64,000 bases of DNA from Blastococcus sp. CT_GayMR16 (GTDB lineage Bacteria > Actinomycetota > Actinomycetes > Mycobacteriales > Geodermatophilaceae): assembly GCF_004570875.1 (NCBI RefSeq), contig NZ_SPQK01000001.1:1-64000 (forward strand), in the 5' to 3' direction. Shown one piece after another: positions 5,190 through 40,394 of the stretch (positions are counted from its first letter, which is position 1; each line of letters opens with the position of its first letter). The notes below the pieces were generated by a model that was given only the letters and a program-made list of their open reading frames with translations, searched no databases and was not told where the DNA came from. A program made the translations under genes and the position numbers.

Positions 5190-5224
5190 CTGCCGGCCGG
5201 TGCGCGGGAAACTAGGCTCCCGCC

Positions 5225-5791: not shown

Positions 5792-5795
5792 CGGC

Positions 5796-7037: not shown

Positions 7038-7068
7038 CGGTATCTCCTTTCCGGCCCCGCAGAGGGGC

Positions 7069-8750: not shown

Positions 8751-8835
8751 GGCCAACCCCCAGGCGTTCCGCCGCGCCAGGCTGCGATCGGACCACACCT
8801 GGTGGCGGTCGGCGAGCTGTAGCGACCGGAGCGGT

Positions 8836-9294
8836 TCAGTCCTCCGCTCGGGCCAGGTCCGCCAGTGCCCGGGCGAGGCTCGCGACGCGGTCGACACCCA
8901 GCGACGTCGCCAGGGCCGACTCGTGCGCCTGCACCAGCGCCTGCAGCCGGGAGAGGCGGGTGCGGCCCAGGTCCGAGAGGTGGACGACGACCTTCCGCCC
9001 GTCGTCGGGGTCGGGGAGCCGGTAGGCGAGGGCCGCGTCGACGGCGCCGTCGACGAGGCGGGTGAGCGTCGGTGCCGGCAGGTGCAGGGCGGCGACGAGC
9101 TCACCCATCGAGCGCCCGGAACCCCACGCGAGCGAGCGCAGCAGGCGGTAGCCGTCCAGCGTGGCGCCGTCCTCGGCCAGGACGGCGGCGACGCCCCGGG
9201 AGACCCGCCGCTGGGTGACCGTCAGGAGCTCGACGAGGTCGTCCGGCACACGAACGGGTTGCGCGGCGGCTGCGGCATCTGCGCCCGGCACCAT
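8836..9294 (-). CDS. MarR-family transcriptional regulator
   Basis: 152 residues with the MarR layout: an N-terminal dimerisation helix, then a winged helix-turn-helix (about residues 40-105, recognition helix in HLPAPTLTRLVDG and wing in PDPDDGRKVVVHLSDLG), and a long C-terminal helix. Members usually repress nearby genes and let go when a phenolic or acidic ligand binds. It sits 85 bases upstream of the minus-strand dehydrogenase-decarboxylase-CoA transferase set and could control it; it is also divergent from the AmiC-like gene with only 20 bases between start codons, too little for two separate promoters. Confidence 0.85.
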   Translation of the reverse strand: MVPGADAAAAAQPVRVPDDLVELLTVTQRRVSRGVAAVLAEDGATLDGYRLLRSLAWGSGRSMGELVAALHLPAPTLTRLVDGAVDAALAYRLPDPDDGRKVVVHLSDLGRTRLSRLQALVQAHESALATSLGVDRVASLARALADLARAED

Positions 9295-9314
9295 GGCCGC
9301 ACCATACTCATCGC

Positions 9315-10358
9315 GTGCCCAGCCAGCCCGGACTCCTGGACCCGTGGGAGGTCCTGCTCACCGGCCCGCGCCCGGACGTCGTCCGCGTGGGGCTGGCCGT
9401 ACCGCTGTCCGGGCCCCTGGCGATGACGGCGCCCTCGGCCCTCGATCTCGCCGGGCTCGCCGCCGACGAGATCAACGCCGCAGGAGGGGTCGCCGGACGG
9501 CCGGTCGAGCTGGTCGGCGTGGACTCCGGCCGTGCGCCGGAGGTGGTCGCGGCGGAGGCGGCGGCGCTGCACCGGGCCGGCGCGTTCGAGCTCCTGGTCG
9601 GGTTCCACACCAGCGACGTGCACCGCGCCCTGGAGCGCGCCCTGCCGCCGGAGGCCCGCTACGTCTTCACCCCGCCGCACGAGGGCGGCGCCCGTCGTCC
9701 CGGCGTCGTGCGGATCGGTCAGTCACCGCTCGAGCAGCACGCCGCCGCGCTGACCTGGCTGGTCCGGCACCGGCGGGCGCGGCGCTGGGTGCTGCTGGGC
9801 ACCGACTACGTGTGGCCGCGCGCGGTGCACCGCGCCGCCCGGCGCGTGCTGGCCGAGGTCGGCGGCGAGGTCGTCGGCGAGGCCTTGGTGCCCTTCGGGC
9901 CGGCCGACCCCGGCCCGCTGCTGGACCTGGTCCGCCGCAGCCGAGCCGACGCCGTGCTGCTCAGCCTGGTGGGCCGCGACCTGGTGGCCTTCAACCGGGA
10001 GTTCGCCCGCGCCGGGCTCGACCGCCGCGTCGTCCGGCTGTCCGGAGCCCTGGAGGAGAACGGCCTCTACGCCCTCGGCGGCGACGCCACCGGGGAGTTG
10101 TTCGCCTGCATGCCGTCGTTCGCCGCGGCCGACGGCGGCGCCGACGAGCACCAGCTGGCCCTGGAGGAGCGCCACTCGCGCCGGTCGGGGCCCGGGGCAC
10201 CGGTCGTCTGCGCCTACGCGCGCGGTGTCTACGACGGGGTCCGGCTGGCCGCTGCGCTGGCCGGCGGGCGGGCGCTGCGGGGACGCCGATCGGCGCCGCG
10301 GCTGGCGCGCGCGGACGGCCTCGCGTTCCGTGAATTAACAGAGACGCACTGCGCCTGA
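9315..10358 (+). CDS. Periplasmic-binding-protein-fold sensor, AmiC-like, no signal peptide
   Basis: 347 residues from GTG 9315. The body is a type I periplasmic-binding fold as in branched-chain amino acid, urea or amide binding proteins: VRVGLAVPLSGPLA, DEINAAGGVAGRPVELV, LVGFHTSDVHRALE, and later DAVLLSLVGRDLVAFNREF. There is no N-terminal signal peptide or lipobox, so the protein should stay in the cytosol. Pseudomonas AmiC is such a cytosolic amide sensor controlling an amidase. Here the gene is followed by an APC permease and an acetamidase/formamidase, so a ligand-sensing regulatory role is inferred rather than transport. Confidence 0.75.
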   Translation: MPSQPGLLDPWEVLLTGPRPDVVRVGLAVPLSGPLAMTAPSALDLAGLAADEINAAGGVAGRPVELVGVDSGRAPEVVAAEAAALHRAGAFELLVGFHTSDVHRALERALPPEARYVFTPPHEGGARRPGVVRIGQSPLEQHAAALTWLVRHRRARRWVLLGTDYVWPRAVHRAARRVLAEVGGEVVGEALVPFGPADPGPLLDLVRRSRADAVLLSLVGRDLVAFNREFARAGLDRRVVRLSGALEENGLYALGGDATGELFACMPSFAAADGGADEHQLALEERHSRRSGPGAPVVCAYARGVYDGVRLAAALAGGRALRGRRSAPRLARADGLAFRELTETHCA

Positions 10359-10365
10359 ATCGTTA

Positions 10366-10379
10366 CTTCCACATGGAAG
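10366..10379. promoter_or_regulatory. Inverted repeat CTTCCA-CA-TGGAAG, candidate operator
   Basis: A perfect 6-base palindrome with a 2-base centre lies 62 bases before the permease start, just after the AmiC-like gene. It is in the right place to be an operator or activator site for the permease-amidase operon. The binding protein is not known; the MarR-type or a distant regulator are possible. Confidence 0.45.
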
Positions 10380-10441
10380 CAGTTGGCTCTAGTCTCCACC
10401 CGGCCCGGCTCAGCGCCGGAGGCAGAGACGTAGGAGTCGTC

Positions 10442-11890
10442 ATGAGCGAACCCCGTACCACCAACGACCCCGCCGGTCCCGTGCCCGGCGCCGCACCCGG
10501 CCCCATCCCAGCCACGGGTGACCCCGGCGTGGAGGCCTTCGGCTACCGCCAGGAGCTGAAGCGCTCGCTCACCTTCACCGACCTGCTGGTCTACGGCCTG
10601 GTCTTCATGGTGCCGATCGCGCCGTTCGGCATCTTCGGTGGCGTCTTCCAGGCCTCGGGCGGGATGGTCGCGCTCGCCTATGCCATCGGCGGACTGGCGA
10701 TGGCCTTCACCGCGGCCTCGTACTCGCAGATGTCGCGGGCCTTCCCGATGGCCGGCTCCGTCTACACCTACGCAGGTCGTGGCATCGCCCAGCCGGTCGG
10801 GTTCATCGCCGGCTGGATGATCCTGCTCGACTACGTGCTGGTGCCCGCGCTGCTCTACTTGATCGCCGCGATCGCGATGAACTCGATCTACTCGTCGGTG
10901 CCGGTGCTGGTGTGGCTGATCGGGTTCGTCCTGCTCAACACCATCGTGAACTTCTTCGGCATCGAGTTCACCGCCCGGGTGAACAAGGTCATGCTGGTCG
11001 GCGAGCTGATCGTGCTCGCGATCTTCCTCGTGATCGGCGTGGTCGCGCTCGCCTCCGGCGAGGGCCGCGGCTTCGACTTCTCCCCCATCTACGACGCCGA
11101 CACCTTCTCGCTGGAACTGGTCTTCGGCGCCGTCTCCATCGCGGTGCTGAGCTTCCTCGGCTTCGACGGGATCTCCACCCTGGCGGAGGAGAACAAGGAA
11201 TCGGCGCGCATGATCGGCAAGTCGATGATCGCCGCGCTCGCGCTGGCCGGCGTCCTGTTCATCGTGCAGACGTGGGTCGCCGCCCTGCTCGTGCCCGACC
11301 CCGACACCCTGATCGCCGAGGGCGACGCCGCGGGCACTGCCTTCTACGACGCCGCAGGCGTGGCCGGTGGCGCGTGGCTAGCCACCCTGACCGCGGTCGC
11401 GACGGCGATCGCCTGGGGTTTCGCCAACTCCCTCGTCGCCCAGGCAGCGACCTCGCGGCTGCTGTTCGCGATGGCGCGCGACCGGCAGCTGCCCAGCTTC
11501 CTGGCCCAGGTGCACCCGACCCGTCGCGTGCCGGTCAACGCCACTCTCGTGGTCGCCGTCATCTCCCTGGTCCTCGGCTGGTACATGACGACGCGGGACG
11601 ACGGCATCACCCTGCTCTCGACCCTGGTCAACTTCGGTGCGCTCTCGGCGTTCCTGCTGCTGCACGTCGCGGTCGTGGTGCACTTCATCGTCCGGCAGAA
11701 GAGCACCGACTACTTCCGCCACCTCGTCGTCCCGGTGCTCGGCTTCGCGATCCTGGCCTACGTCGTCTACAACGCGCAGGTCGCCGCCCAGCGGCTCGGC
11801 TTCGTGTGGCTGGGCGTCGGCCTCGTCCTCATGGGCATCCTCCTGGCCATGGGGCGCAAGCCGGAGCTCAAGGCGGAGGAGCACCTGTGA
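10442..11890 (+). CDS. APC-superfamily amino acid/amide permease
   Basis: 482 residues, chosen start ATG 10442 with TAGGAG eight bases before it. Twelve hydrophobic segments are visible. The first begins at about residue 50 with the APC-type opening SLTFTDLLVYGLVFMVPIAP, and later segments contain GFDGISTLAEENKES, the conserved helix 6 glycine/acidic region. These are cytoplasmic-membrane symporters or exchangers for amino acids, amines and related small molecules. The stop overlaps the start of the acetamidase gene by four bases, so the likely cargo is a short amide or an amide-bearing amino acid used by that enzyme. Confidence 0.85.
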   Translation: MSEPRTTNDPAGPVPGAAPGPIPATGDPGVEAFGYRQELKRSLTFTDLLVYGLVFMVPIAPFGIFGGVFQASGGMVALAYAIGGLAMAFTAASYSQMSRAFPMAGSVYTYAGRGIAQPVGFIAGWMILLDYVLVPALLYLIAAIAMNSIYSSVPVLVWLIGFVLLNTIVNFFGIEFTARVNKVMLVGELIVLAIFLVIGVVALASGEGRGFDFSPIYDADTFSLELVFGAVSIAVLSFLGFDGISTLAEENKESARMIGKSMIAALALAGVLFIVQTWVAALLVPDPDTLIAEGDAAGTAFYDAAGVAGGAWLATLTAVATAIAWGFANSLVAQAATSRLLFAMARDRQLPSFLAQVHPTRRVPVNATLVVAVISLVLGWYMTTRDDGITLLSTLVNFGALSAFLLLHVAVVVHFIVRQKSTDYFRHLVVPVLGFAILAYVVYNAQVAAQRLGFVWLGVGLVLMGILLAMGRKPELKAEEHL

Positions 11891-12921
11891 GCGATCTGAC
11901 GGTCGTCGCCCTGACGCCGGAGCCGGATCAGCTGCGCTACACCTTCGGCGGCGGCGAGCCGTTGATCACGGTGCCGCCGGGCACGGTCGTGGAGCTCACC
12001 ACCGAGGACTGCTTCGGCGGGCGCGTCCGCAGCGCCGACGACCTGCCGAGCCAGGTGTGCGAGTTCCCCTACCTCAACCCGGTCACCGGGCCGATCGCCG
12101 TCGAGGGCGCCGAGCCCGGCGACACCCTCGCGGTGCACCTGGTCGAGATCGCCCCCGCCCGCGACTGGGCGGTGTCGGCCACGTTCCCGCACTTCGGGGC
12201 GCTGACCGCCACGCACAGCACGGCGATGCTGCACGACCCGCTGGAGGAGCTCGTCTGGGTCTACGAGGTCGACCGGGAGCGGGGCACGTGCCTGTTCCGG
12301 CCGCGGCGCGGCGGCCCGGAGGTCGAGCTGCCGCTCGACCCGATGCACGGGACGATCGGGGTCGCGCCCGCCGGAGGTGAGGTGTTCGCGAGCATCACCC
12401 CCGGCGCCCACGGCGGGAACATGGACACCCCCGAGATGCGGGCAGGGACGACGGCGTACTTCGGCGTCAACGTGCCCGGCGGGCAGCTCTCGCTCGGCGA
12501 CGGGCACTGCCGTCAGGGTGAGGGCGAGGTGTGCGGCACCGCGGTGGAGGCCGCGATGCGCACCGTCGTCGTCGTCGACCTCATCAAGGGCGGCGGGCCT
12601 GCAGCCCCACTAGCATGGCCTCGGATCGAGAGCGACGAGTTCCTCATGTCGACCGGCTCGACCCGGCCACTGGAGGACGCCTACCGGGTCAGCCAGCACG
12701 ACCTGGTCACCTGGGCCGCCGAGCTCACCGGCTGGGCGAAGCTCGACGCCTACCAGCTGGTCAGCCAGGCCGGGCTGGCGCCGGCAGGCAACGTCGTGGA
12801 CACCAACTACACGATGGTGGCCAAGCTGGCGAAGCGGTACCTGGGCTCGGACGTCGTGGCCGCCGACGGCGTGCACGGCCGGCTGCGGGCGACGGCCGCC
12901 GCCTACCTCGCCGAGCGCTGA
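11887..12921 (+). CDS. Acetamidase/formamidase family amidohydrolase
   Basis: 344 residues from GTG 11887, overlapping the permease stop (GTGA). It matches the FmdA/AmdA family, which hydrolyses formamide, acetamide or similar short amides to the acid and ammonia. Landmarks: the N-terminal half with TEDCFGG, EGAEPGDTL near residue 75, the central PLDPMHGTIGVAP and TPGAHGGNMDTPEM segments, DGHCRQGEGEVCGTA, and the C-terminal GNVVDTNYTMVAKL. Together with the upstream permease and AmiC-like sensor it forms an amide nitrogen-acquisition locus. Confidence 0.88.
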   Translation: MSDLTVVALTPEPDQLRYTFGGGEPLITVPPGTVVELTTEDCFGGRVRSADDLPSQVCEFPYLNPVTGPIAVEGAEPGDTLAVHLVEIAPARDWAVSATFPHFGALTATHSTAMLHDPLEELVWVYEVDRERGTCLFRPRRGGPEVELPLDPMHGTIGVAPAGGEVFASITPGAHGGNMDTPEMRAGTTAYFGVNVPGGQLSLGDGHCRQGEGEVCGTAVEAAMRTVVVVDLIKGGGPAAPLAWPRIESDEFLMSTGSTRPLEDAYRVSQHDLVTWAAELTGWAKLDAYQLVSQAGLAPAGNVVDTNYTMVAKLAKRYLGSDVVAADGVHGRLRATAAAYLAER

Positions 12922-12928
12922 GGGACAC

Positions 12929-13546
12929 TCACGGCCGCTTGCGGGCTCGCAGGACGGCGTCGTGGACGGTGATGTCGTGGCCCTCGTGGACGGCGGCCGG
13001 GCGCGGCCGGGCCTCCGCGACGACGACGTCCCACCCGTCGTCGAGCGACTCGGCGATCTCCGCGGCGGTGAAGAAGCGCTCGGGCTCCGGCGGCCGGTGC
13101 GCGCCCGCGGCGACGTCGCTGAAGTCGTGCCCGACGACGAGCAGCGTCCCGCCCGGCGCGACCGCCGCCGCCAGCCGGGCGAACAGCTGTCGCCGAGGTT
13201 CGGGCGGCAGGTGCATGAACTGCGCGGAGATCAGGTCGAACTCCGCGCCCGGCACCTCTGCGGTGACATCGGCATAGACCCAGCGGATCCGCCCGGCGAT
13301 CTCGGCGCCGAGCGTCTCCGCGTGCGCCCGGCCGCGCTCCAGCGCGGTGCGGGCAAAGTCCACGGCCGTCACCTGCCACCCGCGCTCCGCGAGCCAGATG
13401 GCGTCGGCTCCCTCGCCGCAGCCGACGTCCAGGGCAGACCCCGGCGGCAGGTCGGCGGCCTCCCGGACGAGCTGTGTGTTGGGCCGGCCGCTCCACAGCG
13501 CGTCGGTGGCGCGGTACCGCTCCTCGAAGGACTGCTCGTCGAACAT
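12929..13546 (-). CDS. SAM-dependent methyltransferase (class I)
   Basis: 205 residues with a Rossmann methyltransferase fold: motif I LDVGCGEGADA at about residues 39-49, motif II acidic residue in VTAVDFA, and LLVVGHDF late in the core. The N-terminal YRATDALWSGRPN is common in small actinobacterial methyltransferases of the TehB/Methyltransf_25 type, some of which methylate metalloids or thiols. The ATG at 13546 overlaps the stop of the upstream flavoprotein gene by one base, so both come from one transcript. The substrate is not evident. Confidence 0.82.
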   Translation of the reverse strand: MFDEQSFEERYRATDALWSGRPNTQLVREAADLPPGSALDVGCGEGADAIWLAERGWQVTAVDFARTALERGRAHAETLGAEIAGRIRWVYADVTAEVPGAEFDLISAQFMHLPPEPRRQLFARLAAAVAPGGTLLVVGHDFSDVAAGAHRPPEPERFFTAAEIAESLDDGWDVVVAEARPRPAAVHEGHDITVHDAVLRARKRP

Positions 13547-14505
13547 CAGCGGGCCCCCGCCAAGGCCCGGGCCTCGACGGCGCGGCGGGTGTCCTCGGCG
13601 ATGAGGTCGGCGTTGATCATGGCCGCGGTATTCAGGCCGGCTGCGGCCGCCGAGATCACCTGCGCCCGGAGGTCCGCAACGTTGCCGGCCACCCAGACCC
13701 CCGGGACGGCCGTGGCACCGGTGGGATCCGCGGCGACGTAGCTGCCGAAGACGTGCCCGTTCAGCTCCATCGGCACCGCCTCCAGGCCGAGCGAGGTCAG
13801 CGCCACGGCGCGGGCGGTGAACCGCGGCGACACGACCAGCGCCCGCCGGGCGACGACCTCCCCGCCGGCGAGCCGCACCCCGGAGAGCCGGCCACCCTCG
13901 CGCTCCAGGCCCTCCACGGTCCCGGTCACGACCGCGATATCACGGGCGGCCAGCTGCTCGCGCTCCTCGGCGGTGGGCGCCGGTCCGGTGTGCTGGAAGA
14001 GCGTCACGTCGGCGCTCCACTGCCGCCACATCAGTGCCTGGTGCACGCCGAAGGGGCCGCCGAGGACGCCGATCGCTGCGTCCCGGACCTCCCAACCGTG
14101 GCAGTAGGGGCAGTGCAGGACGTCGCTGCCGAACAGCTCCGCCACACCCGGGACGTCGGGCAGCTCGTCCACCAGCCCGGTCGTGACGAGCAGCCGCCGC
14201 GCGGACACGAACTCACCGCTTTCCAGAACGACGCGGAAGCCGTCGTCCTCCTGCTCGGCGCGGGCGACCCGGCCGTCGACGAACTGCCCGCCGTAGCCGG
14301 CCACCTCCGCGCGGCCCGAGGCGAGCAGCTCGGCCGGGGTGGCTCCCTCACGACCGAGATAGTTGTGCACGTGGCCGGCCGGGGCGTTGCGCGGCGCCCC
14401 GTCGTCCACCACCAGGACCGACCTCCGGGCCCGCGACAGTGCAAGCGCACCGCTCAGGCCGGCGGCCCCTCCACCGATCACCACTACGTCGTACCGGTCG
14501 TCCAT
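13546..14505 (-). CDS. Thioredoxin reductase-like NAD(P)/FAD oxidoreductase
   Basis: 319 residues from ATG 14505. FAD site GGGAAG at residues 11-16, redox pair C132-P-Y-C135 in HCPYCHGWEV, NAD(P) region GVLGGPFGVHQA, and the final FAD motif GVWVAGNVAD are present. This is the low-molecular-weight thioredoxin reductase fold; CPYCHG variants often act with partners other than thioredoxin, for example in small-molecule disulfide formation. It is paired with a methyltransferase gene and faces an XRE-cupin regulator across a palindrome-rich 77-base gap, so it is probably controlled by that regulator. Confidence 0.85.
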   Translation of the reverse strand: MDDRYDVVVIGGGAAGLSGALALSRARRSVLVVDDGAPRNAPAGHVHNYLGREGATPAELLASGRAEVAGYGGQFVDGRVARAEQEDDGFRVVLESGEFVSARRLLVTTGLVDELPDVPGVAELFGSDVLHCPYCHGWEVRDAAIGVLGGPFGVHQALMWRQWSADVTLFQHTGPAPTAEEREQLAARDIAVVTGTVEGLEREGGRLSGVRLAGGEVVARRALVVSPRFTARAVALTSLGLEAVPMELNGHVFGSYVAADPTGATAVPGVWVAGNVADLRAQVISAAAAGLNTAAMINADLIAEDTRRAVEARALAGAR

Positions 14506-14560
14506 CGTCTGCTCCGCTCGTCGTCGTTCGATGAGGACGACTGTCGACCGATCCGAGTGG

Positions 14561-14593
14561 AACAGCAAGTATCGTTGCTGTTATGGCAACGAT
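14561..14593. promoter_or_regulatory. Two overlapping perfect palindromes at the XRE-cupin start codon
   Basis: AACAGCAA (14561-14568) and TTGCTGTT (14575-14582) form one 8-base dyad; ATCGTTGC (14571-14578) and GCAACGAT (14586-14593) form a second that shares the middle arm and runs past the ATG at 14583. The site would let the regulator block both its own start and the divergent flavoprotein promoter. The two dyads are mutually exclusive as RNA hairpins. Confidence 0.7.
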
Positions 14594-15170
14594 GAACTCG
14601 GACGACGACGTCCTCGCCGGCGTGGGTCCACGGCTCCGGGCGCTCCGTCAGCAGCGTGGGATCGCGCTCAGCGAGCTGGCGGCGACCACCGGCATCTCAG
14701 TGAGCACGCTCTCCCGTCTGGAGTCCGGCCAGCGCCGCCCCACGCTGGAGCTGCTGCTTCCCCTCGCCCGCGTCCACCAGGTGCCGCTGGACGAACTCGT
14801 CGACGCCCCGGCCACCGGCGACCCGCGGATCCACGGGCGGCCATTCGAGCGCCGCGGCGTCACGATCGTCCCGCTGACCCGGCGTCCCGGCGGCCTGCAG
14901 GCGTTCAAGCAGCTCTACCCGCCGCAGTGGCCCGGCGGGGAACCCGAGCAGCAGTCGCACGAGGGCTACGAGTGGCTCTACGTGCTCTCCGGCCGGTTAC
15001 GGCTGCTGCTGGGCGAACACGACGTCCTGCTGAAGCCCGGCGAGGTCGCGGAGTTCGACACCCATGTGCCGCACGCGTTCGCGACGGGCGCCGAGGCGGC
15101 CGAGGTGCTGTGCCTCTTCGGTCCGCAGGGCGAGCGGCTGCACGTCCGGGCGGCTCCCGCGGGAAGGTGA
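14583..15170 (+). CDS. XRE-family regulator with C-terminal cupin
   Basis: 195 residues. Residues 14-68 are a classic helix-turn-helix (LRALRQQRGIALSELA then GISVSTLSRLESGQRRP), and about 100-185 form a cupin barrel with HEGYEWLYVLSGRLRLLLG and PGEVAEFDTHVPH. This architecture is a one-component regulator in which the cupin binds a small ligand. An in-frame ATG at 14592 could also be used, giving a product three residues shorter. The start lies directly against one palindrome arm and inside another, so autorepression is likely, and the divergent flavoprotein-methyltransferase pair is the obvious target. Confidence 0.88.
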   Translation: MATMNSDDDVLAGVGPRLRALRQQRGIALSELAATTGISVSTLSRLESGQRRPTLELLLPLARVHQVPLDELVDAPATGDPRIHGRPFERRGVTIVPLTRRPGGLQAFKQLYPPQWPGGEPEQQSHEGYEWLYVLSGRLRLLLGEHDVLLKPGEVAEFDTHVPHAFATGAEAAEVLCLFGPQGERLHVRAAPAGR

Positions 15171-15174: not shown

Positions 15175-15756
15175 TCAGGGCTCGAGCTGACGCACCACGC
15201 GGGCCGGATTGCCGACGGCGACGACGTTCGCCGGGAGGTCGCGGGTCACCACCGCGCCCGCGCCGACGACCGTGTTCGCGCCGATCGACACCCCGGGGCA
15301 GACGATGACGCCGCCGCCCAGCCACACGTTGTCGCCGATCGTGATCGGCTCCGCGGCCTCCCACTTGTCGCGGCGGGGCCCGGGCTCCACCGGGTGGGTG
15401 GGGGTGAGCAGCTGGACGTTGGGGCCGATCTGGACGTCGTCCCCGATGGTGATCGCGGCGACGTCGAGGGCGACGAGCCCGAAGTTGGCGAACGACCGCG
15501 CCCCGATCGAGAGGTTCGTGCCGTAGTCGACGTACAGCGGAGGCCGGATCTCGGTGCCCTCGCCGACCGATCCCAGGAGCTGCTCCAGCAACTGGCGGCG
15601 CAGCGGGGCCTGCCGCACGCTCGTCGCGTTGTACGCGGCCATGAAGTCCAGCGCGACCGCGCTGTCCTCGGCCAGCTCGGGGTCGTCGGCGATGTAGAGG
15701 TCACCGGCGAGCATCCGCTCGCGCATCGACCGGCGGTCCGTCTGCTCCGTCGTCAC
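15175..15756 (-). CDS. Maltose O-acetyltransferase-like hexapeptide acetyltransferase
   Basis: 193 residues from GTG 15756 (an ATG at 15777 would add seven). The N-terminal helical part RMLAGDLYIADDPEL is the Mac domain found in maltose/galactoside acetyltransferases, followed by a left-handed beta-helix of hexapeptide repeats with YGTNLSIG, HPVEPG and VVGAGAVV. The catalytic histidine is in TPTHPVE. The family uses acetyl-CoA to acetylate a sugar hydroxyl, often to dispose of excess or non-metabolised sugar. Convergent with the XRE-cupin gene, four bases apart. Confidence 0.87.
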   Translation of the reverse strand: MTTEQTDRRSMRERMLAGDLYIADDPELAEDSAVALDFMAAYNATSVRQAPLRRQLLEQLLGSVGEGTEIRPPLYVDYGTNLSIGARSFANFGLVALDVAAITIGDDVQIGPNVQLLTPTHPVEPGPRRDKWEAAEPITIGDNVWLGGGVIVCPGVSIGANTVVGAGAVVTRDLPANVVAVGNPARVVRQLEP

Positions 15757-15785
15757 GTCGGCGAACCTACCGAGCACCCGTCCGG

Positions 15786-16796
15786 TCAGAGGCGCAGGGA
15801 CCAGGACGACAGGTGCCCGACCGGCCGGAAGCCGAGGGCCTCGTTGACCGCGACCATCGGCAGGTTGCTGTCGGAGTTGTATGTGCTGATGCGGCGCACC
15901 TGGGGCATCGTCGCCGTCAGCTCGCGGAGCACGGCGGCCTTCAGAAGTGCTCCCAGCCGGTGGCCGCGGTGTTCGCGCAGGACCAGCGTGCCCGCCTGCT
16001 GCGCCCGCTCCGGCTGCGCCAGCGGGACCTGCAGGTCGGTGAAGGCGACCAGGCGGCCGTCCCTCACGGCCCCCGCGGAGAGGACCGTGCGTCCGCGGGC
16101 GACGTGGGCCGCCTCGTACTCCCGGATCCGCTCGCCGTCCCAGTGCTCCTCCTCCACCGGCAGCTCACCGTGCGGGGCGTCGGTGGTCATCCGCCGCTCG
16201 AGCACAGCCCGGTCGTCGAGCAGGTCGTCCGGGGTCCGGTCCCGCCAGGTGATCAGCTCGTAGCCGACGCTGGCGCTCCTCGCCTCGGCCTCGAGGGCGG
16301 CCAGGGCCTGCTCGTCCGGCGGCAGCAGGAGGTCGCGCCGGGTCTCCAGCAGGTCGCACGTCCAGCCGTGCCGCAGGGCGAACTCCCGGCCCGGGGTGCC
16401 GGGCGCCGGCTCGTCGATCTCCGCGATGAGGTCCGTTCGCCCGGCGGCCGCAGCGAGCCGGAGCCCCTCCGCGAGGAGCGTCCCGCCGATGCCGCGCCGG
16501 CGGTGCTCCGGGTGCACTGCGACGTCGACGACGGCGACCGTCGGGTTGTCCTTCGTGGGCAGCAGCAGCCGCAGGGCACCGACGACTCCGCCGTCGACGA
16601 CCGCGGCACGATGCGTGCCGTCCCGGGATCCGCCCGGGGACACGAGCTGGCGGCCCAGGGCGACGTGGTCCGACGCCGGTCGCGGAGACTCGTCGGGACG
16701 GTCGGCACGCTCGGTTGCGGCCCAGACCTCGCACCAGGCGGCGAAGAGGCCGTCGTCGGGGCCGAGTTCTACGAGCTCGAGCGCGGGGGAAGGCAC
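15786..16796 (-). CDS. Two-domain GNAT acetyltransferase
   Basis: 336 residues, about twice one GNAT domain. The N-terminal domain is clear, with the acetyl-CoA pyrophosphate loop in HRRRGIGGTLL at about residues 99-109 after strand VAVVDVAVHP. The second half has a weaker copy (AGTLVLREHRGHRLGALL and an asparagine-rich YNSDSNLPM). This layout resembles actinobacterial double-GNAT enzymes such as mycothiol synthase, but the mycothiol-synthase hallmarks are not evident and the acceptor is unknown. Likely cytosolic; no operon partner. Confidence 0.8.
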   Translation of the reverse strand: MPSPALELVELGPDDGLFAAWCEVWAATERADRPDESPRPASDHVALGRQLVSPGGSRDGTHRAAVVDGGVVGALRLLLPTKDNPTVAVVDVAVHPEHRRRGIGGTLLAEGLRLAAAAGRTDLIAEIDEPAPGTPGREFALRHGWTCDLLETRRDLLLPPDEQALAALEAEARSASVGYELITWRDRTPDDLLDDRAVLERRMTTDAPHGELPVEEEHWDGERIREYEAAHVARGRTVLSAGAVRDGRLVAFTDLQVPLAQPERAQQAGTLVLREHRGHRLGALLKAAVLRELTATMPQVRRISTYNSDSNLPMVAVNEALGFRPVGHLSSWSLRL

Positions 16797-16864
16797 CCCC
16801 CAGTCCTACCGTCCGGGGCAACGGCTTTTCCGCACGTCCCGTCCGAATGGCCGTGGCCCGCGGA

Positions 16865-17110
16865 TCACTCCGCCGGGGCGTGCGCGAGCATCCGGCCGAC
16901 CGTCTCCACCCAGGCCGCCCGCACCTCCTGCGGCTTGTCGAGCACGGCGTTCGCCACCTCGGCTTCGACGCCGCGGCCGCCACCGACCATTGCTTCGAAG
17001 GCGAGGCGGAACAGGAGGGTCCTGATCTGTTCCACGTCGAGCCCGGCGTCGACCAGGGGCTGGATGACCCAGTACGGCTGCTCGCGTGCGACCAACTCCA
17101 CGCCGATCAT
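16865..17110 (-). CDS. Small hypothetical protein
   Basis: 81 residues from ATG 17110 (an in-frame ATG at 17140 would add ten). Mostly helical, with GLDVEQIRTLLFRLAFEAM and a C-terminal helix WVETVGRMLAH. It reads a little like the ligand-binding C-terminus of a TetR-type regulator but has no DNA-binding part, so I make no functional call. It lies 51 bases after the SRPBCC gene on the same strand and could be co-transcribed. Confidence 0.4.
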   Translation of the reverse strand: MIGVELVAREQPYWVIQPLVDAGLDVEQIRTLLFRLAFEAMVGGGRGVEAEVANAVLDKPQEVRAAWVETVGRMLAHAPAE

Positions 17111-17161
17111 TCGCGACCGGACGCCGCTCCGGATGCACACGTGGCCGGGAAGGTGGCCCCG

Positions 17162-17590
17162 TCAGCCCGCTTCGACGGTCTTCTTGACGCCGTCCAGGAG
17201 CGCCGTCCACATGCCCGTCGAGTGCTCCGCCTCGTCGGGGGTGGCGTTGTTGTCCTGGCTGAGCGTCAGGTGCGTCCCCGCACCGCGACCCTCGAGCTGA
17301 TACGTCAGGGTGTGGTAGTTCTCCGGCACGTCCGGCTGACCGCTCATCGGGCTGTAGTGGGTGACCACCAGGCGCTCCCCGGGCTCGATCGCGACGATCT
17401 CTCCCTTGTCCTCGTACGCCCGGCCCTCGTGGACGCCCCGCCAGACGATCGGGCTCCCGACCCGCCAGTCGGTCTCCACGTCCGACCCGAACATGAACTT
17501 CTTGATCTGCACCGGGTCGACCAGGGCCGCCCACACCTGGGCCGGTGCGGCGTCGATGTCGATCTCTGCCGTGGCCACGAGGCCGGTCAT
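17162..17590 (-). CDS. SRPBCC/AHSA1-type domain protein
   Basis: 142 residues with GGAGGA about 10 bases before ATG 17590. It opens with the helix-grip pattern of the START/AHSA1 family (EIDIDAAPAQVWAALVDPVQIKKFMFG), continues with SPIVWRGVHEGRAYEDKGEIVAIEPGERL and ends in a long helix. These domains form a deep hydrophobic pocket; bacterial members bind lipids or small ligands or act as polyketide-like cyclases. No partner gene indicates which. Confidence 0.82.
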   Translation of the reverse strand: MTGLVATAEIDIDAAPAQVWAALVDPVQIKKFMFGSDVETDWRVGSPIVWRGVHEGRAYEDKGEIVAIEPGERLVVTHYSPMSGQPDVPENYHTLTYQLEGRGAGTHLTLSQDNNATPDEAEHSTGMWTALLDGVKKTVEAG

Positions 17591-17764
17591 GCGTGGCTCC
17601 TCCGTCCTACTGGTCCGTCTCCTACCGGCCACCGTAGGGCGGATCGACCGGGCCGTAGTGGAGAAAGACGTCACTGTTCTTCGGCAGGAAGCCGGTCGGA
17701 TTTGTTTCGATCTCCACGGCGGCTCACATAGAGAGGAGGGGGGTTCACCGGAGAGGCAGAGCGC

Positions 17765-18856
17765 GTGACCGAGACGGTTCCCGACCGCACGAGGACGCCG
17801 ACGCTGCGGATCGCGTCGGTGCCGGAGGACCACGTGTACGTGCGGCACCTCGGAGCCGTGGATGGTTCCGACTCGACTCGCAGACTGCCCGACCCGCCAC
17901 CGGACGACCCCGATGCGTTCCCCGGCCAGTGGTGGCCGCCCCGGATGCTCTCGCCGGACTGGGTGCGCGAGCACCGCGCCGAGTTCGACGTCATGCATGT
18001 GCAGTTCGGCTTCGACGCGCAGTCCGCCCAGACGCTCGCCTCGCTCGTGGCGGAACTGCGGCGATGGGACAAGCGGCTCGTGTACACCGCTCATGACCTC
18101 CGCAATCCGCACCACATCGACCGGCGGGCGCACGACGAGCACCTGGACGTGCTGATCCCCCAGGCCGACGAGGTGGTCACCCTCACCTCCGGTGCCGCAG
18201 CCGAGATCGAGCGTCGCTGGGGCCGGCGGCCCGTCGTCCTTCCGCACCCCCATGTCATCGAGTTCGAACGATTCGGCCGACGGCCCGCCGGTGGAGACGG
18301 GTGGACGGTCGGCGTGCACGCCAAGAGCGTGCGCGCGAGCATGGTCCCGCTGCCGGTGATCGCTGCGATCGCTGATGTCGTGCGCGAGCTGCCCGGCGCG
18401 CGCCTGCAGGTCAACGTCCACCACGACGTCGCCGACGCCGAGGGCCTCCGGCACGACCCGGCGCTGATGCGGTGGCTGCGGGAGGCGGCGTCCGACGGAG
18501 TCCTGGACCTGTTCGTCCACGACTGCTTCAGCGACGAAGAGCTGTGGCAGTACCTCGAGTCGCTGGATCTGTCGGTCCTTCCCTATCGGTTCGGGACGCA
18601 TTCGGGCTGGCTGGAGGCCTGCTTCGACCTGGGTACGACGGTGCTGGCGCCGACGTGCGGCTTCATCGCCCAGCAGCGGCCGTGCCTCACCTACCGGCAC
18701 GACGAGCGGGGACTGGACGTGTCGTCCTTGCAGGCGGCCGTCCGGACCGCCTACGAGCAGCGTCCGCTGTGGCAGGCGAGCCTCGCGGACCGGCGACAGG
18801 AGCGGGCCGAGCTGGCGGCCGCCCACCGCACGATCTACGAGGCGGTCCTGCGGTGA
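17765..18856 (+). CDS. Glycosyltransferase, GT4-like
   Basis: 363 residues from GTG 17765 (GGAGAGG ten bases upstream). Two Rossmann-like halves are visible: FDVMHVQFGFDAQ and LVYTAHDLRNPHH in the first, and DGWTVGVHAKS, LSVLPYRFGTHSGWLEACFDLG in the second, where the GT-B family binds the nucleotide sugar. The usual E-x7-E motif is degenerate (HSGWLEAC). It is the first of four glycosyltransferase genes in one direction with overlapping ends, so it probably adds one sugar of a short glycan made on the cytosolic side. Confidence 0.8.
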   Translation: MTETVPDRTRTPTLRIASVPEDHVYVRHLGAVDGSDSTRRLPDPPPDDPDAFPGQWWPPRMLSPDWVREHRAEFDVMHVQFGFDAQSAQTLASLVAELRRWDKRLVYTAHDLRNPHHIDRRAHDEHLDVLIPQADEVVTLTSGAAAEIERRWGRRPVVLPHPHVIEFERFGRRPAGGDGWTVGVHAKSVRASMVPLPVIAAIADVVRELPGARLQVNVHHDVADAEGLRHDPALMRWLREAASDGVLDLFVHDCFSDEELWQYLESLDLSVLPYRFGTHSGWLEACFDLGTTVLAPTCGFIAQQRPCLTYRHDERGLDVSSLQAAVRTAYEQRPLWQASLADRRQERAELAAAHRTIYEAVLR

Positions 18857-19923
18857 CGCCGCCCTCGCGGATCGCGATCATCGGGTCAGTGCGCCATCCG
18901 ATCCGCGAACCGTTCGCCGGTGGGCTGGAGGCACACACGTGGGGCCTCGCGCGTGCCCTCCGCGAGCGAAGTCATGACGTGACGGTCTTCGCGGGGCCGG
19001 GCTGCGACCCCGCGCTCGACGTGCAGGAGATACCGGTCCGGTGGCCACGGATCAGCGCGGCCGCTCGCGCCGACGTGAGCATGACCGCGGACGCGTGGCT
19101 CGAGGAGCACCACGCCTACCTCACGCTCATGCTCGAACTGTCCCGGACCCGCCAGTTCGACGTGGTGCACAACAACTGCCTCCACCACCTGCCCATCGCG
19201 ATGGCCCCGGCCCTCCCCACCCCGATGGTGACGACGCTGCACACGCCGCCCACGCCCTGGCTCGAGTCCGCGATACAGACGGGACCCAGCGCGGTCACGT
19301 TCGTGGCCGTCAGCGAGCACACCGCCCGCGCGTGGCGGCCCAGCACCGCGGCGCAGGTGATCCGGAACGGCGTGGACCTCGACCTGTGGCCATGGGGGCC
19401 GGGCGGCGGGTCCGCCATCTGGTTCGGGCGCCTGGTCCCCGAGAAGGGCGCCGATCTCGCGATCCGGGCGGCCCAGGCGGCAGGCCTGGCTCTCGACCTC
19501 GTCGGACCGATCGCCGACCGCCGCTACTTCGTGGACCACATCAGTCCGCGCCTGGGACCGCAGGTCCGCTACCTCGGGCATCTCGACCGCGCGGCCCTCG
19601 CCGAGCGGGTGGGCGCGGCCTCGGTCACCCTCGTGACGCCGCGGTGGGACGAGCCCTACGGCCTCGTCGTCGCCGAGTCACTCGCCTGCGGCACCCCGGT
19701 CGCCGCGTTCGATCGTGGCGCGGTGTCCGAGGTGCTCGACCGGGACTGCGGCGTGCTGGTCGGGGCCGACGACGTCCCCGCCCTCGCTGACGCCGCGGAG
19801 CGCGCCCGTTCCCTGTCCCGCGCCGCCGCCCGTGACCAAGCCGTTCGCCATTGCTCGCTGGCCCGCATGATCGACGACTACGAGAGCCTGTACGCGCGCC
19901 TCGCGGGGCGGGACGTCGCATGA
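18853..19923 (+). CDS. Glycosyltransferase family 4 protein
   Basis: 356 residues from GTG 18853, overlapping the previous stop (GTGA). The N-terminal glycine-rich acceptor loop is in PFAGGLEAHTWGLARAL, the hinge in VIRNGVDLDLW, and the donor site in WFGRLVPEKGADLAI with the retaining-GT E-x7-E motif in DEPYGLVVAESLACGTPVAAF (about residues 270-290). These features are textbook GT4. The donor and acceptor sugars are not readable. Second gene of the four-gene glycosyltransferase operon. Confidence 0.9.
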   Translation: MTPPSRIAIIGSVRHPIREPFAGGLEAHTWGLARALRERSHDVTVFAGPGCDPALDVQEIPVRWPRISAAARADVSMTADAWLEEHHAYLTLMLELSRTRQFDVVHNNCLHHLPIAMAPALPTPMVTTLHTPPTPWLESAIQTGPSAVTFVAVSEHTARAWRPSTAAQVIRNGVDLDLWPWGPGGGSAIWFGRLVPEKGADLAIRAAQAAGLALDLVGPIADRRYFVDHISPRLGPQVRYLGHLDRAALAERVGAASVTLVTPRWDEPYGLVVAESLACGTPVAAFDRGAVSEVLDRDCGVLVGADDVPALADAAERARSLSRAAARDQAVRHCSLARMIDDYESLYARLAGRDVA

Positions 19924-20927
19924 TCGGCTACTACGTCCACCACGTCGGGCGCGGTCACCTCCGCAACGCGATGTGCATTGCCTCAGCCCTCGACCACGAG
20001 GTGACCGGGCTGTCCTCCGTGCCCCGGCCGGCCGAGTGGACGGGTCCGTGGATCGACCTCGAGCGCGACGACCAGGGCCACCCCGTCCGGGACCCGAGCG
20101 CGCACGGCCGACTGCACTGGGCTCCGGCGCACGACGTCGGCCTGGCCGCCCGGATGGCCCGCATCGCGGAGTGGATCAACACCGCGCGTCCCGCTGCGCT
20201 GGTCGTGGACGTCTCCGTCGAGGTCGCCGTCTTCGGACGCCTCATGGGGGTACCGGTCATCATGACGGCGCTACCCGGCGACCGCTCCGACGCCGCCCAT
20301 CAGCTGGGCTACTCGGTGGCCGACGCGATCCTCGCGGCCTGGCCGTCGGACCTGGGCGCCATGGATCGCGACCTGCACCGATGGGCCGACCGAACCCACC
20401 ACGTCGGTGGGCTCTCGCGGTTCGCCGGCCGCTCCACGACTGCGCCGCCACGCGCCCGACGCCGTGTCCTCGTCCTGCAGGGCAGCGGCGGCACGAGCAT
20501 TCGTCAGGCCGACATCGGGGCCGCTGCCGCTGCCACGCCCGAGTGGGACTGGCACCGCCTCGGGCCCGGCGCGTGGTCCGAGGACCCCTGGCCCGAGCTG
20601 TGCGCGGCCGATGTGGTGGTCACCCACGCCGGGTTGGGTGCCCTCGCCGACGTCGCCGCGGCGGGCCGCCCCGCAGTGGTCATTCCCGAGGACCGCCCGC
20701 ACGACGAGCAACGCGCGACCGCCCGCGCCCTCGCCGACGCCGGCCCGGTCGTCACCTCGGGACACTGGCCGGAGGACCACCAGTGGCCGGACCTGCTCGC
20801 GCGCGCTCTCGTCGTCGGCGGATCCGGCTGGCAACGCTGGCGCACGGACGGCGCCGCCGAACGCGCCGCCCGGGTCATCGGAGCCGTGGCCGGCCAGCAC
20901 GCGCGGGAGTCTGCGTCGTGCGCGTAG
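19920..20927 (+). CDS. MurG-like GT-B glycosyltransferase
   Basis: 335 residues from ATG 19920, overlapping the previous stop (ATGA). The opening HHVGRGHLRNAMCIASAL matches the GxGH acceptor loop of MurG/MGD-type enzymes, and the C-terminal half has LVLQGSGGTS and VVVTHAGLGALADVAAAGRPAVVIPEDRPHDEQ, the conserved GT28 donor-binding segment. MurG itself is usually in the dcw cluster and more conserved, so this is a paralogue for another glycan or a secondary metabolite. Third gene of the operon. Confidence 0.85.
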   Translation: MIGYYVHHVGRGHLRNAMCIASALDHEVTGLSSVPRPAEWTGPWIDLERDDQGHPVRDPSAHGRLHWAPAHDVGLAARMARIAEWINTARPAALVVDVSVEVAVFGRLMGVPVIMTALPGDRSDAAHQLGYSVADAILAAWPSDLGAMDRDLHRWADRTHHVGGLSRFAGRSTTAPPRARRRVLVLQGSGGTSIRQADIGAAAAATPEWDWHRLGPGAWSEDPWPELCAADVVVTHAGLGALADVAAAGRPAVVIPEDRPHDEQRATARALADAGPVVTSGHWPEDHQWPDLLARALVVGGSGWQRWRTDGAAERAARVIGAVAGQHARESASCA

Positions 20928-21754
20928 CGGTGATCACGCCCGTCGCGGGTCGGCACCGGCATCTGAGCGTGCAACGACGAGGTCTGCGGCGCAGCACCGC
21001 GCCGGTCGGCTCCCACGTCGTCGTCTGCATGGGTGACCCCGCCGCCGCTGACGTGGCCGCCGCTCGGGCCGGGCCGCCACTGGCCGCGGTCCACGTCGAC
21101 GTTCCCGACTCCCGCTTGCCGCTGGCCCGCGCCCGCAATGCGGGCGCCGAGAGGGCGATCGAGTCCGGCGCGGACCTGCTGGTCTTCCTGGACGTCGACT
21201 GCGTACCCGCACCCGGCATGGTGCGGCGCTACGTGGAGTGCGCTGGCGAGGACCGGGCTCCGCGACTGCTCTGCGGACCGGTCGCCTATCTGCCTCCTCC
21301 GCCGCCGGCCGGCTACGACCTTGATCGGCTCAGCGAGCTGGCTGACCCGCATCCGGCCCGTCCGCACCCGGGCGAGAACGAGACCCTGGAGAACGGGGAT
21401 CCGCGGCTGTTCTGGTCGCTGTCCTTCGCCGTCCGTCCCGCCGTCTGGGAACGGATCGGCGGCTTCTGCGAGGAGTACCGCGGCTACGGCGGCGAGGACA
21501 CGGACTTCGGTCAGTGCGCCGCGGCTGCCGGTGTCCGCCTGGACTGGACCGGCGGCGCTGTCGCCCACCACCAGTTCCATCCGGTGAGCGACCCGCCGGT
21601 CGAGCACGTGGACGACGTCGTTGCCAACGCACGGATCTTCTTCCGGCGATGGGGGTGGTGGCCGATGTCCGGCTGGCTGACCGAGTTCCAGCGCCTGGGC
21701 CTGGCCCATTTCGACCCCGCCGACGGCTGGCGACACGGTCCGTCCGGCGACTGA
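20918..21754 (+). CDS. Glycosyltransferase family 2-like protein
   Basis: 278 residues from GTG 20918, overlapping the previous gene by ten bases. GT-A fold features: first strand RVAVITPVAGR, LPLARARNAGAE, the metal-binding DVDC (D-x-D type) at about residues 90-93, and GGEDTDFGQ (about 193-201), the galactosyltransferase-like GGED motif of GT2/GT27 C-terminal regions. An inverting transferase using a UDP-sugar is likely. Last gene before the tRNA fragment, so the operon ends at the edge of the inserted DNA. Confidence 0.85.
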   Translation: MRVAVITPVAGRHRHLSVQRRGLRRSTAPVGSHVVVCMGDPAAADVAAARAGPPLAAVHVDVPDSRLPLARARNAGAERAIESGADLLVFLDVDCVPAPGMVRRYVECAGEDRAPRLLCGPVAYLPPPPPAGYDLDRLSELADPHPARPHPGENETLENGDPRLFWSLSFAVRPAVWERIGGFCEEYRGYGGEDTDFGQCAAAAGVRLDWTGGAVAHHQFHPVSDPPVEHVDDVVANARIFFRRWGWWPMSGWLTEFQRLGLAHFDPADGWRHGPSGD

Positions 21755-21804
21755 CGCGCCGACGCCCGGCCGGCCGCATCGTCGGACCCGTGACGGGGAG
21801 ATCG

Positions 21805-21841
21805 CTCCCCCGAGTGGACTCGAACCACCAACCCTGCGATT
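21805..21841 (-). other. 3' half of a tRNA (tRNA-Asn-like), integration site remnant
   Basis: Read on the minus strand, 37 bases match the 3' part of a tRNA: anticodon-stem remainder AATCGCA, variable loop, T arm GGTGG-TTCGAGT-CCACT (five pairs, one of them G-U), acceptor strand CGGGGGA and discriminator G. The acceptor and discriminator fit tRNA-Asn of actinobacteria. No D arm or anticodon is present beyond the boundary, so it is not a working tRNA. This is the usual footprint of a tyrosine integrase that recombines at the anticodon loop, and its polarity puts the inserted DNA at higher coordinates. Confidence 0.7.
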
Positions 21842-21978
21842 GGTCGGGTTGGATTCTCCGCTACTGACCCTTGGATGCCGCAGGTGGCCTTTGGGCTGCT
21901 GTTTCACCGCAACATCGGGACCCCTGGAGCCCTTTCAGACCGGCCCCTGCCTCTGAATTCTGGGAGTAAAATGGGGTT

Positions 21979-23124
21979 ATGGCGGGGCGCATGGCGCGCC
22001 CACCATTGGAGCTCGGCACCCACGGTGCCATCCGCTGCTACAAGACCGCCACGGGCTATCGGGCACGGACCCTGGCCCGGGGCTACGACGGTCAAGTCCG
22101 AGGGATCGAGCGTCGCGCGAAGAGCAAGGCAGCCGCCGAGCGGTCCCTGAAACTGGCCCTGCGTGACCGGTCCCGAATCCAGTCGCACGGCGACATCACC
22201 GCGGACACTCGGGTCAGTGTTGGCCGAGGCCTGGTACGCCGGCTGAAGGACCTCCCCCATCACCATGCAGGCCTACCGCGACCGCCCCGACCGGCAGATC
22301 CTGCCGGGACTCGGACAACTCCGCGTACGCGAGCTGACCATTGGCGTCCTCGACCGGCACCTGCGGCTGATCGTCGCCAGGCACGGCACGTCGACGGCCA
22401 CGATGTGCCGATCCGTCTTCTCCGGACTGTGCACGCTGGCCGCCCGCCACGAGGCGCTCGAGCGCAATCCGGTCCGAGCACTCGGACCGGTCAGCGCGAA
22501 GGCCAAGAGGGCGCCGCGGGCAATGACCGTGCCCGAGCTGCGGCAGCTGCGCGCCGCCCTCAGCTACGACGAGCAGGCCATCGCCCGCGACCTAACCGAT
22601 CTCGTCAGCTTCATGGTGTCCACCGGGCTACGCATTGGAGAGGCAACCGGCCTGGCCTGGGACCGTCGACCTCGAGCTCGGCACCGTCGACGTGCGCCCC
22701 GCCGCGATCCGGGTGAAAGGCCAGGGGCTGATCATCAAGACCACCAAGACCGACGCCGGCACCAGAACGCTCGTCCCCCCAGTGGCGCATCACGATGCTG
22801 AGGCGCCGGGCCGCGACCACCATCCTCCGCGAGGACAGCGGGAAGGGACAGCCAGTGTTTCCGGCACCCCTCGGCGGCTGGCGCGACCCGTCCAACACGC
22901 AGGCCGACCTACGCCAGGCCTTCACGAACGCGGGCTTTGACTGGGTGACCTCCCACGTCTTCGGCAAGACCGTAGCCACCGTGATGGACCAGGCCGGCCT
23001 TTCCTCGCCAGCGGCCGCCGACCAGCTCGGCCACGCCAACATCTCCATGACGAGCGACGTCTACTTCGGCCGGAAAGTTCTCCTCACCGGTGCAGCCGCC
23101 GTACTGGAGATCATCGACACCTGA
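21979..23124 (+). pseudogene. int: Tyrosine site-specific integrase, frameshifted
   Basis: A phage/ICE-type integrase of about 380 residues can be pieced together from three frames. The N-terminal segment (GYRARTLARGYDG) is at 21979-22215, SAM-like and core parts at 22265-22665 (catalytic arginine in TGLRIGEATGLAW), then 22660-22790, then the C-terminal part from about 22795 to TGA 23124 with GHANISMTSDVYFGRK containing the histidine and nucleophile tyrosine. At least four frame changes (near 22215, 22240, 22665 and 22795) break it. In addition the box II H-x-x-R reads HVFGKT, so the second catalytic arginine has become glycine. It is dead twice over. It sits 137 bases from the tRNA remnant, as expected for int next to an att site. 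Confidence 0.85.
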
Positions 23125-23398
23125 GCCCATACGGAAACTCGCACGGCTGCGCGAGGACGAGCGACGGAACGCATCTCCCCCTCGGCCTCCAGCCTTCGGC
23201 CATTGGTCTCTGATCGTTCACGGAACTGCGTTCCTGCCGGTCAGCCTCGGTAGGGGACAGCTGAGGACGGTCGGGACGGCCCCGGCCAAGGGCGGGTAGT
23301 GGTCACATAACGCCCGCGGGGCCTGACGCATGATCCCGTTCTCCGCTCCCTGCGGGTATCGACGCACGCTTGCGTTCTCGACAGGCCGTTACCGGCAC
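23125..23398. other. No gene seen between integrase relic and ATPase relic
   Basis: Frames on both strands show only biased low-information peptides. Given its neighbours this is probably decayed mobile DNA; the piece nearest 23399 may be the unreadable C-terminus of the P-type ATPase relic. Confidence 0.5.
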
Positions 23399-23640
23399 TG
23401 GTCGCGATACCTCCAACGGCGTGCGCCCTCGGCCGGAGCGTCGTTGACGCCGTCTCCGATCATCGCCACCGGCCGCCCCTGCAAGGGCGGGACCTTCTCG
23501 CTCGTGCTCCCCGCCGCGCCCGCGGCGAACACCTGACCGGGCTCGGCCGCGATCGCGCGGGCCACCGGCTCGACGTCTCCAGACCTCGACCTCGACCTCC
23601 ACGCCCAGGCGTGCAGGCCGTCGACCGCCTCACGGACGTC
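23399..23640 (-). pseudogene. Heavy-metal P-type ATPase fragment
   Basis: On the minus strand about 80 codons keep one frame and match the P domain of CopA/CtpV-type ATPases in order: DVREAVDGLHA, EPVARAIAAE, SEKVPPLQGRPVAM and the signature GDGVNDAPAEGAR. The TGD phosphatase loop and the nucleotide domain are lost, the reading frame ends at TAA 23401-23399, and no start or membrane segments are present. It is a leftover of a cargo gene of the old element, unrelated in frame or place to the intact metal ATPase at 57471-59531. Confidence 0.75.
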
Positions 23641-23968
23641 CGTCCCCGGCCTTCCACCGGCGGGCCGAACTTTGCGCAGGCGACGGCCCTTGCTCGTCGC
23701 GTACGTACTCAGAGTTCCTACCGAGACGTCTCATCGGATTATCAGCTAGCGCCTGGGACCGTGCGCAGACAAGAACGTCCAGGCCAACCAGGGAGTCATG
23801 ATGGACCGTCCGGCGACCTCTGGTCGAGGCGCTGTCAATCGACCCTTTCGTCCATGACCGGCCCCGTTTCGATGTGGCGTTCGTCGGAACCGTGACACCG
23901 TCCATCGCCGTTCGTCGTGGGCACCCGTCTGCACCGTGGCTCCACGACACCATGCCCCGCCGACGGTC

Positions 23969-24421
23969 ATGAGTGACAGCAGCTCGGCCGGGACGATCGG
24001 TCGGAGTCGTCCCGACCCCTGCTCTCCCCCGTGGTTCACCCGGCCCAGGGGCCTCCTGGCCGTCGTCCTCGACGATTCTGATGAGGCCCGCCGGGCCGTC
24101 ACGGCCCTGCGGAGAGCCGGATTCGGCGCGCAGGCAGTGAAGGTCTACGCCGGCAAGCAAATCATCGATGACTACCGGCGCTACATCGAGCAGCGGGGCG
24201 TGGTCCGGCGGATGGTCCGCGCCTTGATGGTGGACGAGGAAAGCATCAATCTGTACTTGGCATACGCCCGCGACGGTTGCTCAGCTGTCTGGATCCGCGT
24301 CCCGGACCACGATGCGGCCAACCGTGCGGTACGCCACCTCGCCGGATGTCATTCGCTCCACTTCCGGTATTTCGGTCACCGCCGCGAACGCGCGATCATC
24401 CTTCGCCGTCCAACATCCTGA
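23969..24421 (+). CDS. Hypothetical protein, about 150 aa
   Basis: 150 residues from ATG 23969 (a longer in-frame start at 23936 is less likely). The core LLAVVLDDSDEARRAVTALRRAGFGAQAVKVYAG is a beta-alpha-beta unit like those of small stress-related or ferredoxin-like domains, followed by a basic helix (DYRRYIEQRGVVRRMVRALM) and a second strand-helix pair with a histidine/arginine-rich end (HFRYFGHRRERAI). No catalytic motif is visible. It survives intact between two relics, so it may be under selection. Family not recognised. Confidence 0.55.
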   Translation: MSDSSSAGTIGRSRPDPCSPPWFTRPRGLLAVVLDDSDEARRAVTALRRAGFGAQAVKVYAGKQIIDDYRRYIEQRGVVRRMVRALMVDEESINLYLAYARDGCSAVWIRVPDHDAANRAVRHLAGCHSLHFRYFGHRRERAIILRRPTS

Positions 24422-24683
24422 GCCCTGCAGGGCCGGAAAGTCCCCCGGATGGCGCGCTGTCGCCCGCCAAACGCGTCAGTGGCCAGGAGATGCCGGGCAG
24501 CCCGGCGGCGCGCAACAGCCGCTGCACGGGGCAGCGAGCCGCCGGATGGCGCTGCCGGTGCAGCTCGGCGTGGACTCTACGGCCCCGTAGATGCCGACGT
24601 CGTCGGCATGGATGTGCTCGATCAGCGCCGCGGTGGCCGCGTACCTGAGGCCAGACCGGCCCGATCAATGGAGGATCACAAGC

Positions 24684-24758
24684 GTGACGGAGGGATACGT
24701 CGAGCTCGCAGCCGCGCGGCTCCAGCCCGCCGCGGCCTCTAGCGCAGAGCCCCCGTGA
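24684..24758 (+). CDS. 24-codon upstream ORF coupled to the membrane protein gene
   Basis: GTG 24684 follows GGAGG by nine bases, and the 24-codon frame (VTEGYVELAAARLQ to PP) ends at a TGA that overlaps the GTG of the next gene. It could be a translational coupling leader or chance. Confidence 0.3.
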   Translation: MTEGYVELAAARLQPAAASSAEPP

Positions 24759-25980: not shown

Positions 25981-25983
25981 GGT

Positions 25984-26166
25984 CGAATACGCAGGCCGAC
26001 CTGTCAGGCCTTCCCGAACGCGGACTTCGACTGGGTGACGTTCCTGATCCTCCGCGAGACGGCCGCCAAGCCGATGGACCACGCGCGCCTCACTTCATGC
26101 CCGGCGGCCGACCAGCTCAGCCACGCCGACGTCTCCATGACCCGGGAACCGGAGGTCACCTGCTGA
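25984..26166 (+). pseudogene. Second tyrosine integrase relic (C-terminal end)
   Basis: From about 25984 the sequence follows the C-terminal part of the first integrase (22888-23070) at both DNA and protein level: ACGCAGGCCGACCT, then FDWVTF, then ADQLSHADVSMT corresponding to ADQLGHANISMT. One frame change near 26000 and loss of the segment with the nucleophile tyrosine show it is dead. It is a different copy, since box II here still has an arginine (ILRET). The end overlaps the 3' end of the convergent metallophosphoesterase gene by 11 bases. Confidence 0.75.
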
Positions 26167-39068: not shown

Positions 39069-39199
39069 GCGTCCCCCTGCGGACGCTCATCCTCTCAGCG
39101 TCCTCTTGGCCGGCCGGGACCAGCATGTGCGCCATGAGGGGCTCGCGGACAGCCCAGCCGGTGGACGCTGCGGAGGCCCCCGGATCGGAGGACAGCCTG

Positions 39200-40375: not shown

Positions 40376-40394
40376 GCGCCTGACGGGAGCGACC

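Follow-up and report, generated by a model that had tools for sequence, protein, structure and literature searches.

Two mobile islands lie head to tail at a tRNA-Asn hotspot in Blastococcus sp. CT_GayMR16

The DNA analysed here opens onto a tandem array of two mobile islands, arranged head to tail at one tRNA-Asn hotspot. The window, by which we mean the whole 64,000-nucleotide stretch, is positions 1–64000 of a 480,694-base contig (NZ_SPQK01000001.1) of a 4.52-Mb genome, and its coordinates are those of the contig. A 38-nt core is present on this contig in three co-oriented copies, all on the minus strand: at 21804–21841, at 104422–104459 and within the intact tRNA-Asn at 211189–211262. The outermost fragment is separated from the intact tRNA-Asn by 189 kb, with the second bare tRNA piece in between, and a permissive search found no additional core between 21.8 and 211 kb. 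Element A (21.8–104.4 kb), whose integrase is dead, lies outside element B (104.4–211.2 kb). Intact tRNA and displaced 3′ fragments share orientation and replicon, as in tRNA-integrated islands, and each member of the array has its own fragment and its own tyrosine integrase, a relic beside the outer fragment for A and an intact gene beside the tRNA for B. The features of the window are as follows.

1–15170: conserved chromosome left of the hotspot; genes g1–g17 keep their order on the far side of the fragment or tRNA in G006, G009, G012, G015 and other genomes.
15175–21754: variable block left of the fragment, with two acetyltransferases, an AHSA1 protein and glycosyltransferases (Pfam).
21804–21841, minus strand: bare 3′ half of tRNA-Asn (nt 37–74), the outer attachment core of element A; 37/38 identity to the intact tRNA-Asn and to the fragment at 104422–104459.
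21842–64000: left part of element A, running on to 104421; bounded by the two tRNA-Asn 3′ halves and filled with accessory cargo.
21979–23124, plus strand: tyrosine integrase A pseudogene, homologous start 21991; Pfam Phage_integrase match, pieces 65–84% identical to the intact copy in G015.
23125–24750: decayed stretch with few convincing genes; low coding scores from our own gene caller and just short frames in the six-frame listing.
25982–26147, plus strand: second relic, the C-terminus of integrase A; 77% DNA and 58% protein identity.

The 3′ half in the window differs from the genome's own tRNA-Asn at one of 38 positions (E 1.7e-11). The mismatch is confined to the window copy, as the cores at 104422–104459 and in the tRNA-Asn are identical. 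Aligned without gaps, the best of the other 38-mers in the window still has 16 mismatches, so the match is evidently not due to chance. A preliminary description of the window, made from its letters alone, had reported a 37-base minus-strand tRNA-Asn 3′ half at 21805–21842; the half gene is real, but it is 38 nt long and its coordinates were one base off. The same description found neither an intact tRNA nor a second copy in the window, and here it was right on both counts: ARAGORN and Rfam returned no intact tRNA, as expected of a half gene, and nothing came closer than the 38-mer with 16 mismatches. It also reasoned from the 3′ polarity that an intact tRNA-Asn should lie to the right, past 64 kb. 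Searching for the core in that direction recovered both the copy at 104422–104459 and the tRNA-Asn at 211189–211262.

Integrase A runs on the plus strand to 23124 from one of two ATG codons, at 21979 and 21991, which lie 137 and 149 bases from the tRNA fragment. The second is likely the true start, to judge from the homologues, which begin there. The Pfam Phage_integrase match covers 22885–23064. Set against an intact homologue, the gene changes frame at least three times net (near 22214, 22660 and 22780) and carries an in-frame TGA near 22244; alternatively, a compensating pair of shifts at that place brings the frame changes to five. The motif that reads H-V-F-R in intact relatives is H-V-F-G here, and the active-site Tyr, the first Arg and the second His are retained. 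These results bear out what had been noted before about this gene: the 137-base spacing, as counted to the first ATG, the multiple frame changes and the change from H-x-x-R to H-x-x-G. The second relic, 2.9 kb to the right of the first integrase, is a badly decayed C-terminal piece; its DNA identity is to the window integrase, and its protein identity, over 48 residues, is to an intact relative.

The cargo of element A comprises two-component systems, lipid and sugar enzymes and a copper/metal block. Related genomes that kept these genes in the same order without an insertion junction would argue against an insertion; for 33.2–41.3 kb, the part so compared, the genes as a block are absent from the 114 other genomes of the family, and this partial comparison does not contradict an insertion. 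Among the contents, a FAD-binding oxidase, a short-chain dehydrogenase and a UbiA prenyltransferase stand in a row at 36937–41327, inside the island, and resemble the DprE1/DprE2/UbiA arabinan pathway. The metal block (57000–103800, in the window from 57471) holds several P-type ATPases, a multicopper oxidase, cation efflux, DsbD, SCO1 and DUF305 proteins, with a transposase at its right end (103.2–103.8 kb). We also considered a prophage, but the proteins scanned with Pfam included no phage structural genes.

The region from 21.8 to 104.4 kb may be a patchwork and not one element, because the copper genes, which lie left of 104.4 kb here, are within element B in G015 (Blastococcus sp. CT_GayMR19), and because element A has no genes above 50% identity in common with the elements A of G015 and G017 except the integrase. 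A serious contender, if somewhat short of probable, is that element A is a composite of at least two decayed elements whose inner fragments have been lost. The second integrase A relic at 25982–26147 and the transposase at 103.2–103.8 kb would fit such a history, as would the matches of the copper genes (82–102 kb) to genes within element B of G015 and of the 57–86 kb genes to DNA adjoining the tRNA of another genome, G004. Against it, no further core was found within 21.8–104.4 kb, even by permissive search.

Element B is ICE-like. Its intact integrase (416 aa) starts 111 bp from the tRNA-Asn and is of the same broad type as integrase A, at about 40–46% identity. The element encodes an 1869-aa fusion protein (TrwC relaxase, helicase and DnaG-type primase), a coupling protein of the TraD/TraG type (TraG-D_C / TrwB_AAD_bind) with an M23 peptidase, and Tad-like genes (a TadA-like T2SSE, two T2SSF and a SAF/CpaB-like protein); relaxase, coupling protein and Tad-like genes span 152643–202468. 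Defence genes lie at 159785–186468, namely Wadjet-type genes and a DNA methylase adjoining a type III restriction-type protein. Both ends of element B, the left (fragment, then g121–g122) and the right (g193–g209, then tRNA), recur in G015 and G009.

Judged as a T4SS-type ICE, element B has the relaxase and the coupling protein, and the VirB4-type ATPase profile AAA_10 (PF12846), the one profile searched genome-wide, had no match in the whole genome at E 0.001. A set of Tad-like genes alongside a relaxase and a coupling protein, but with no VirB4 match, is the sole feature that we could not match to a described system. Element B might conceivably transfer DNA by the TrwC relaxase and coupling protein via a Tad-type pilus machine that replaces the VirB4-type T4SS, a proposal that we consider unlikely. 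We found no description of relaxase and coupling protein transfer via a Tad-type machine in the searchable literature, and a Cutibacterium acnes plasmid with tad and conjugation genes has a VirB4-type ATPase (PMC5696575).

Conserved chromosome borders the array on both sides with variable DNA between, which upholds the original reading of the tRNA piece and broken integrase as the left edge of inserted DNA. The right flank of the tRNA is kept in 14 of the 16 genus genomes searched, our own counted, and the other two are incomplete. The left backbone (window 1–15.2 kb) lies across the tRNA-Asn region in G002, G006, G007, G009, G011, G012 and G015. Relatives thus share the flanks and hold different or little DNA between them, from about 10 kb in G007 (contig C103) to more than 130 kb in G015. 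At least one bare 3′ half is present in nine of the 16 genomes. The same array recurs in G015, in the order fragment, intact integrase A, fragment, element B genes, integrase B, tRNA-Asn, and G017 offers a simple 42-kb case of fragment, integrase A and tRNA-Asn. No perfectly empty site was found among these genomes; the nearest is the region of about 10 kb in G007, with a truncated integrase beside the tRNA. In G010, the tRNA and the left backbone are on separate contigs. The record 'Bacillus sp. AZ43' (SPQJ01000007.1, marked unverified) groups with Blastococcus (G006), and its name looks wrong.

The variable region also reaches about 6.6 kb to the left of the fragment, with backbone from about 15.2 kb. 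DNA at 17.2–21.75 kb has no good match in the same genus, and the glycosyltransferase part of the variable block matches G018 and G029 at 66–70%. The insertion had been described as perhaps reaching from 21842 beyond 64000, unless its right end had been lost. It does run on, as far as the tRNA-Asn at 211 kb, but it consists of two elements, and variable DNA extends left to about 15.2 kb.

The best explanation of the array, in which we have high confidence, is repeated site-specific integration at the anticodon region of tRNA-Asn. Element A would have come first: integrase A would have inserted it into the tRNA-Asn by exchanging strands close to the anticodon loop. Its own 3′ half would have restored the tRNA gene and the original 3′ half would have been displaced to 21804–21841, leaving integrase A at the outer end of the element, about 150 bp from the core. 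The restored tRNA would later have received element B, with its own related integrase, and a second 3′ half would thereby have moved to 104422–104459. Element A would then have decayed, losing the integrase frame and a catalytic residue and gaining one mismatch in its core. Two considerations suggest that the outer element is the older: newcomers insert at the tRNA, and it is this element whose core and integrase have decayed.

Element B may well still be mobile. The earlier conclusion that the island is fixed is too strong, since the intact integrase beside the tRNA is broadly of the same type, the cores still match, and tandem elements in Frankia excise both singly and jointly (PMC3218068); joint excision of A and B might still occur. 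A single large island from 21.8 to 211.2 kb, acquired in one event and with the 104.4-kb fragment as an internal relic or duplication, seems most improbable. The outermost fragment and the tRNA do enclose all 189 kb, and from outside a joint unit would be indistinguishable. Yet a fragment and an integrase belong to either half, and in G015 and G009 the 104.4–211.2 kb half is found again, with the end genes and a fragment as here but flanked by other neighbours. Two successive integrations remain our preferred account.

The association of integrase and tRNA extends well beyond this genome. We searched for integrase A in 115 genomes of the family and examined 21 loci (about 56% identity or more). 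At 20 of these, the opposite strand carries a bare tRNA 3′ half, 130–210 bp upstream where the start is intact; the exception, L069, has none. The targets are tRNA-Asn at ten loci, Lys-TTT at four, Thr-TGT at four and Lys-CTT at two, and the ten include one weak match (L061, 76%), next to a gene without its N-terminus. The part common to the fragments begins at about nt 36–37, and all four tRNA types have TAATC at positions 36–40, right after the second base of the anticodon. On a tree built from 18 integrases, five changes of target are needed, where the minimum for four targets is three. Close relatives of integrase B occupy the opposite end and have an intact tRNA-Asn about 80–110 bp upstream on the same strand in 26 of 28 cases. 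A lone fragment minus its 5′ half is what a deletion would leave, but the chance that the 38 bases are a deletion-truncated tRNA gene or a random match unrelated to the integrase is negligible given the E-value of 1.7e-11 and the 16 mismatches of the next-best match in the window, and we discarded this origin because the same 3′ half (from nt 36–37) adjoins the same integrase family in many genomes as a recurring module.

These results show where Blastococcus has a large and recurrent insertion hotspot, and they account for about 190 kb of the contig, most of the window included, as accessory DNA (metal resistance, defence, metabolism). They also make integration-site switching testable, as one integrase family with similar core spacing uses tRNA-Asn, tRNA-Lys and tRNA-Thr genes that share TAATC. 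Our literature search returned nothing on tRNA-Asn islands in Blastococcus. Tandem tRNA islands, integration at anticodon sites and tRNA switching are already known, and the Blastococcus array is a further example. How island ends are marked, the anticodon class of insertion sites and tandem arrays are all treated in the Islander paper (PMC4383910). Similar to the islands described there, ours show a restored tRNA, a co-oriented displaced 3′ fragment, a tyrosine integrase, an anticodon-type site and a tandem arrangement; unlike them, element A has a dead integrase, which is found by the fragment and not by the tRNA. For actinobacteria, PMC3218068 reports elements in tandem within a single tRNA gene as well as related integrases with different tRNA targets. 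Compared to the T4SS-type ICEs of Actinobacteria treated in that paper, element B has the integrase, TrwC relaxase and T4CP, yet it lacks an AAA_10 match and carries Tad-like T2SSE, T2SSF and SAF genes. The tandem AICEs Fean5518 and Fean5534 of Frankia (PMC3218068) likewise form a pair with related integrases that share a single actinobacterial tRNA gene, tRNA-Lys. However, the Frankia pair excises and is small, at about 32 kb in all, whereas the array described here covers 189 kb and has one broken integrase.
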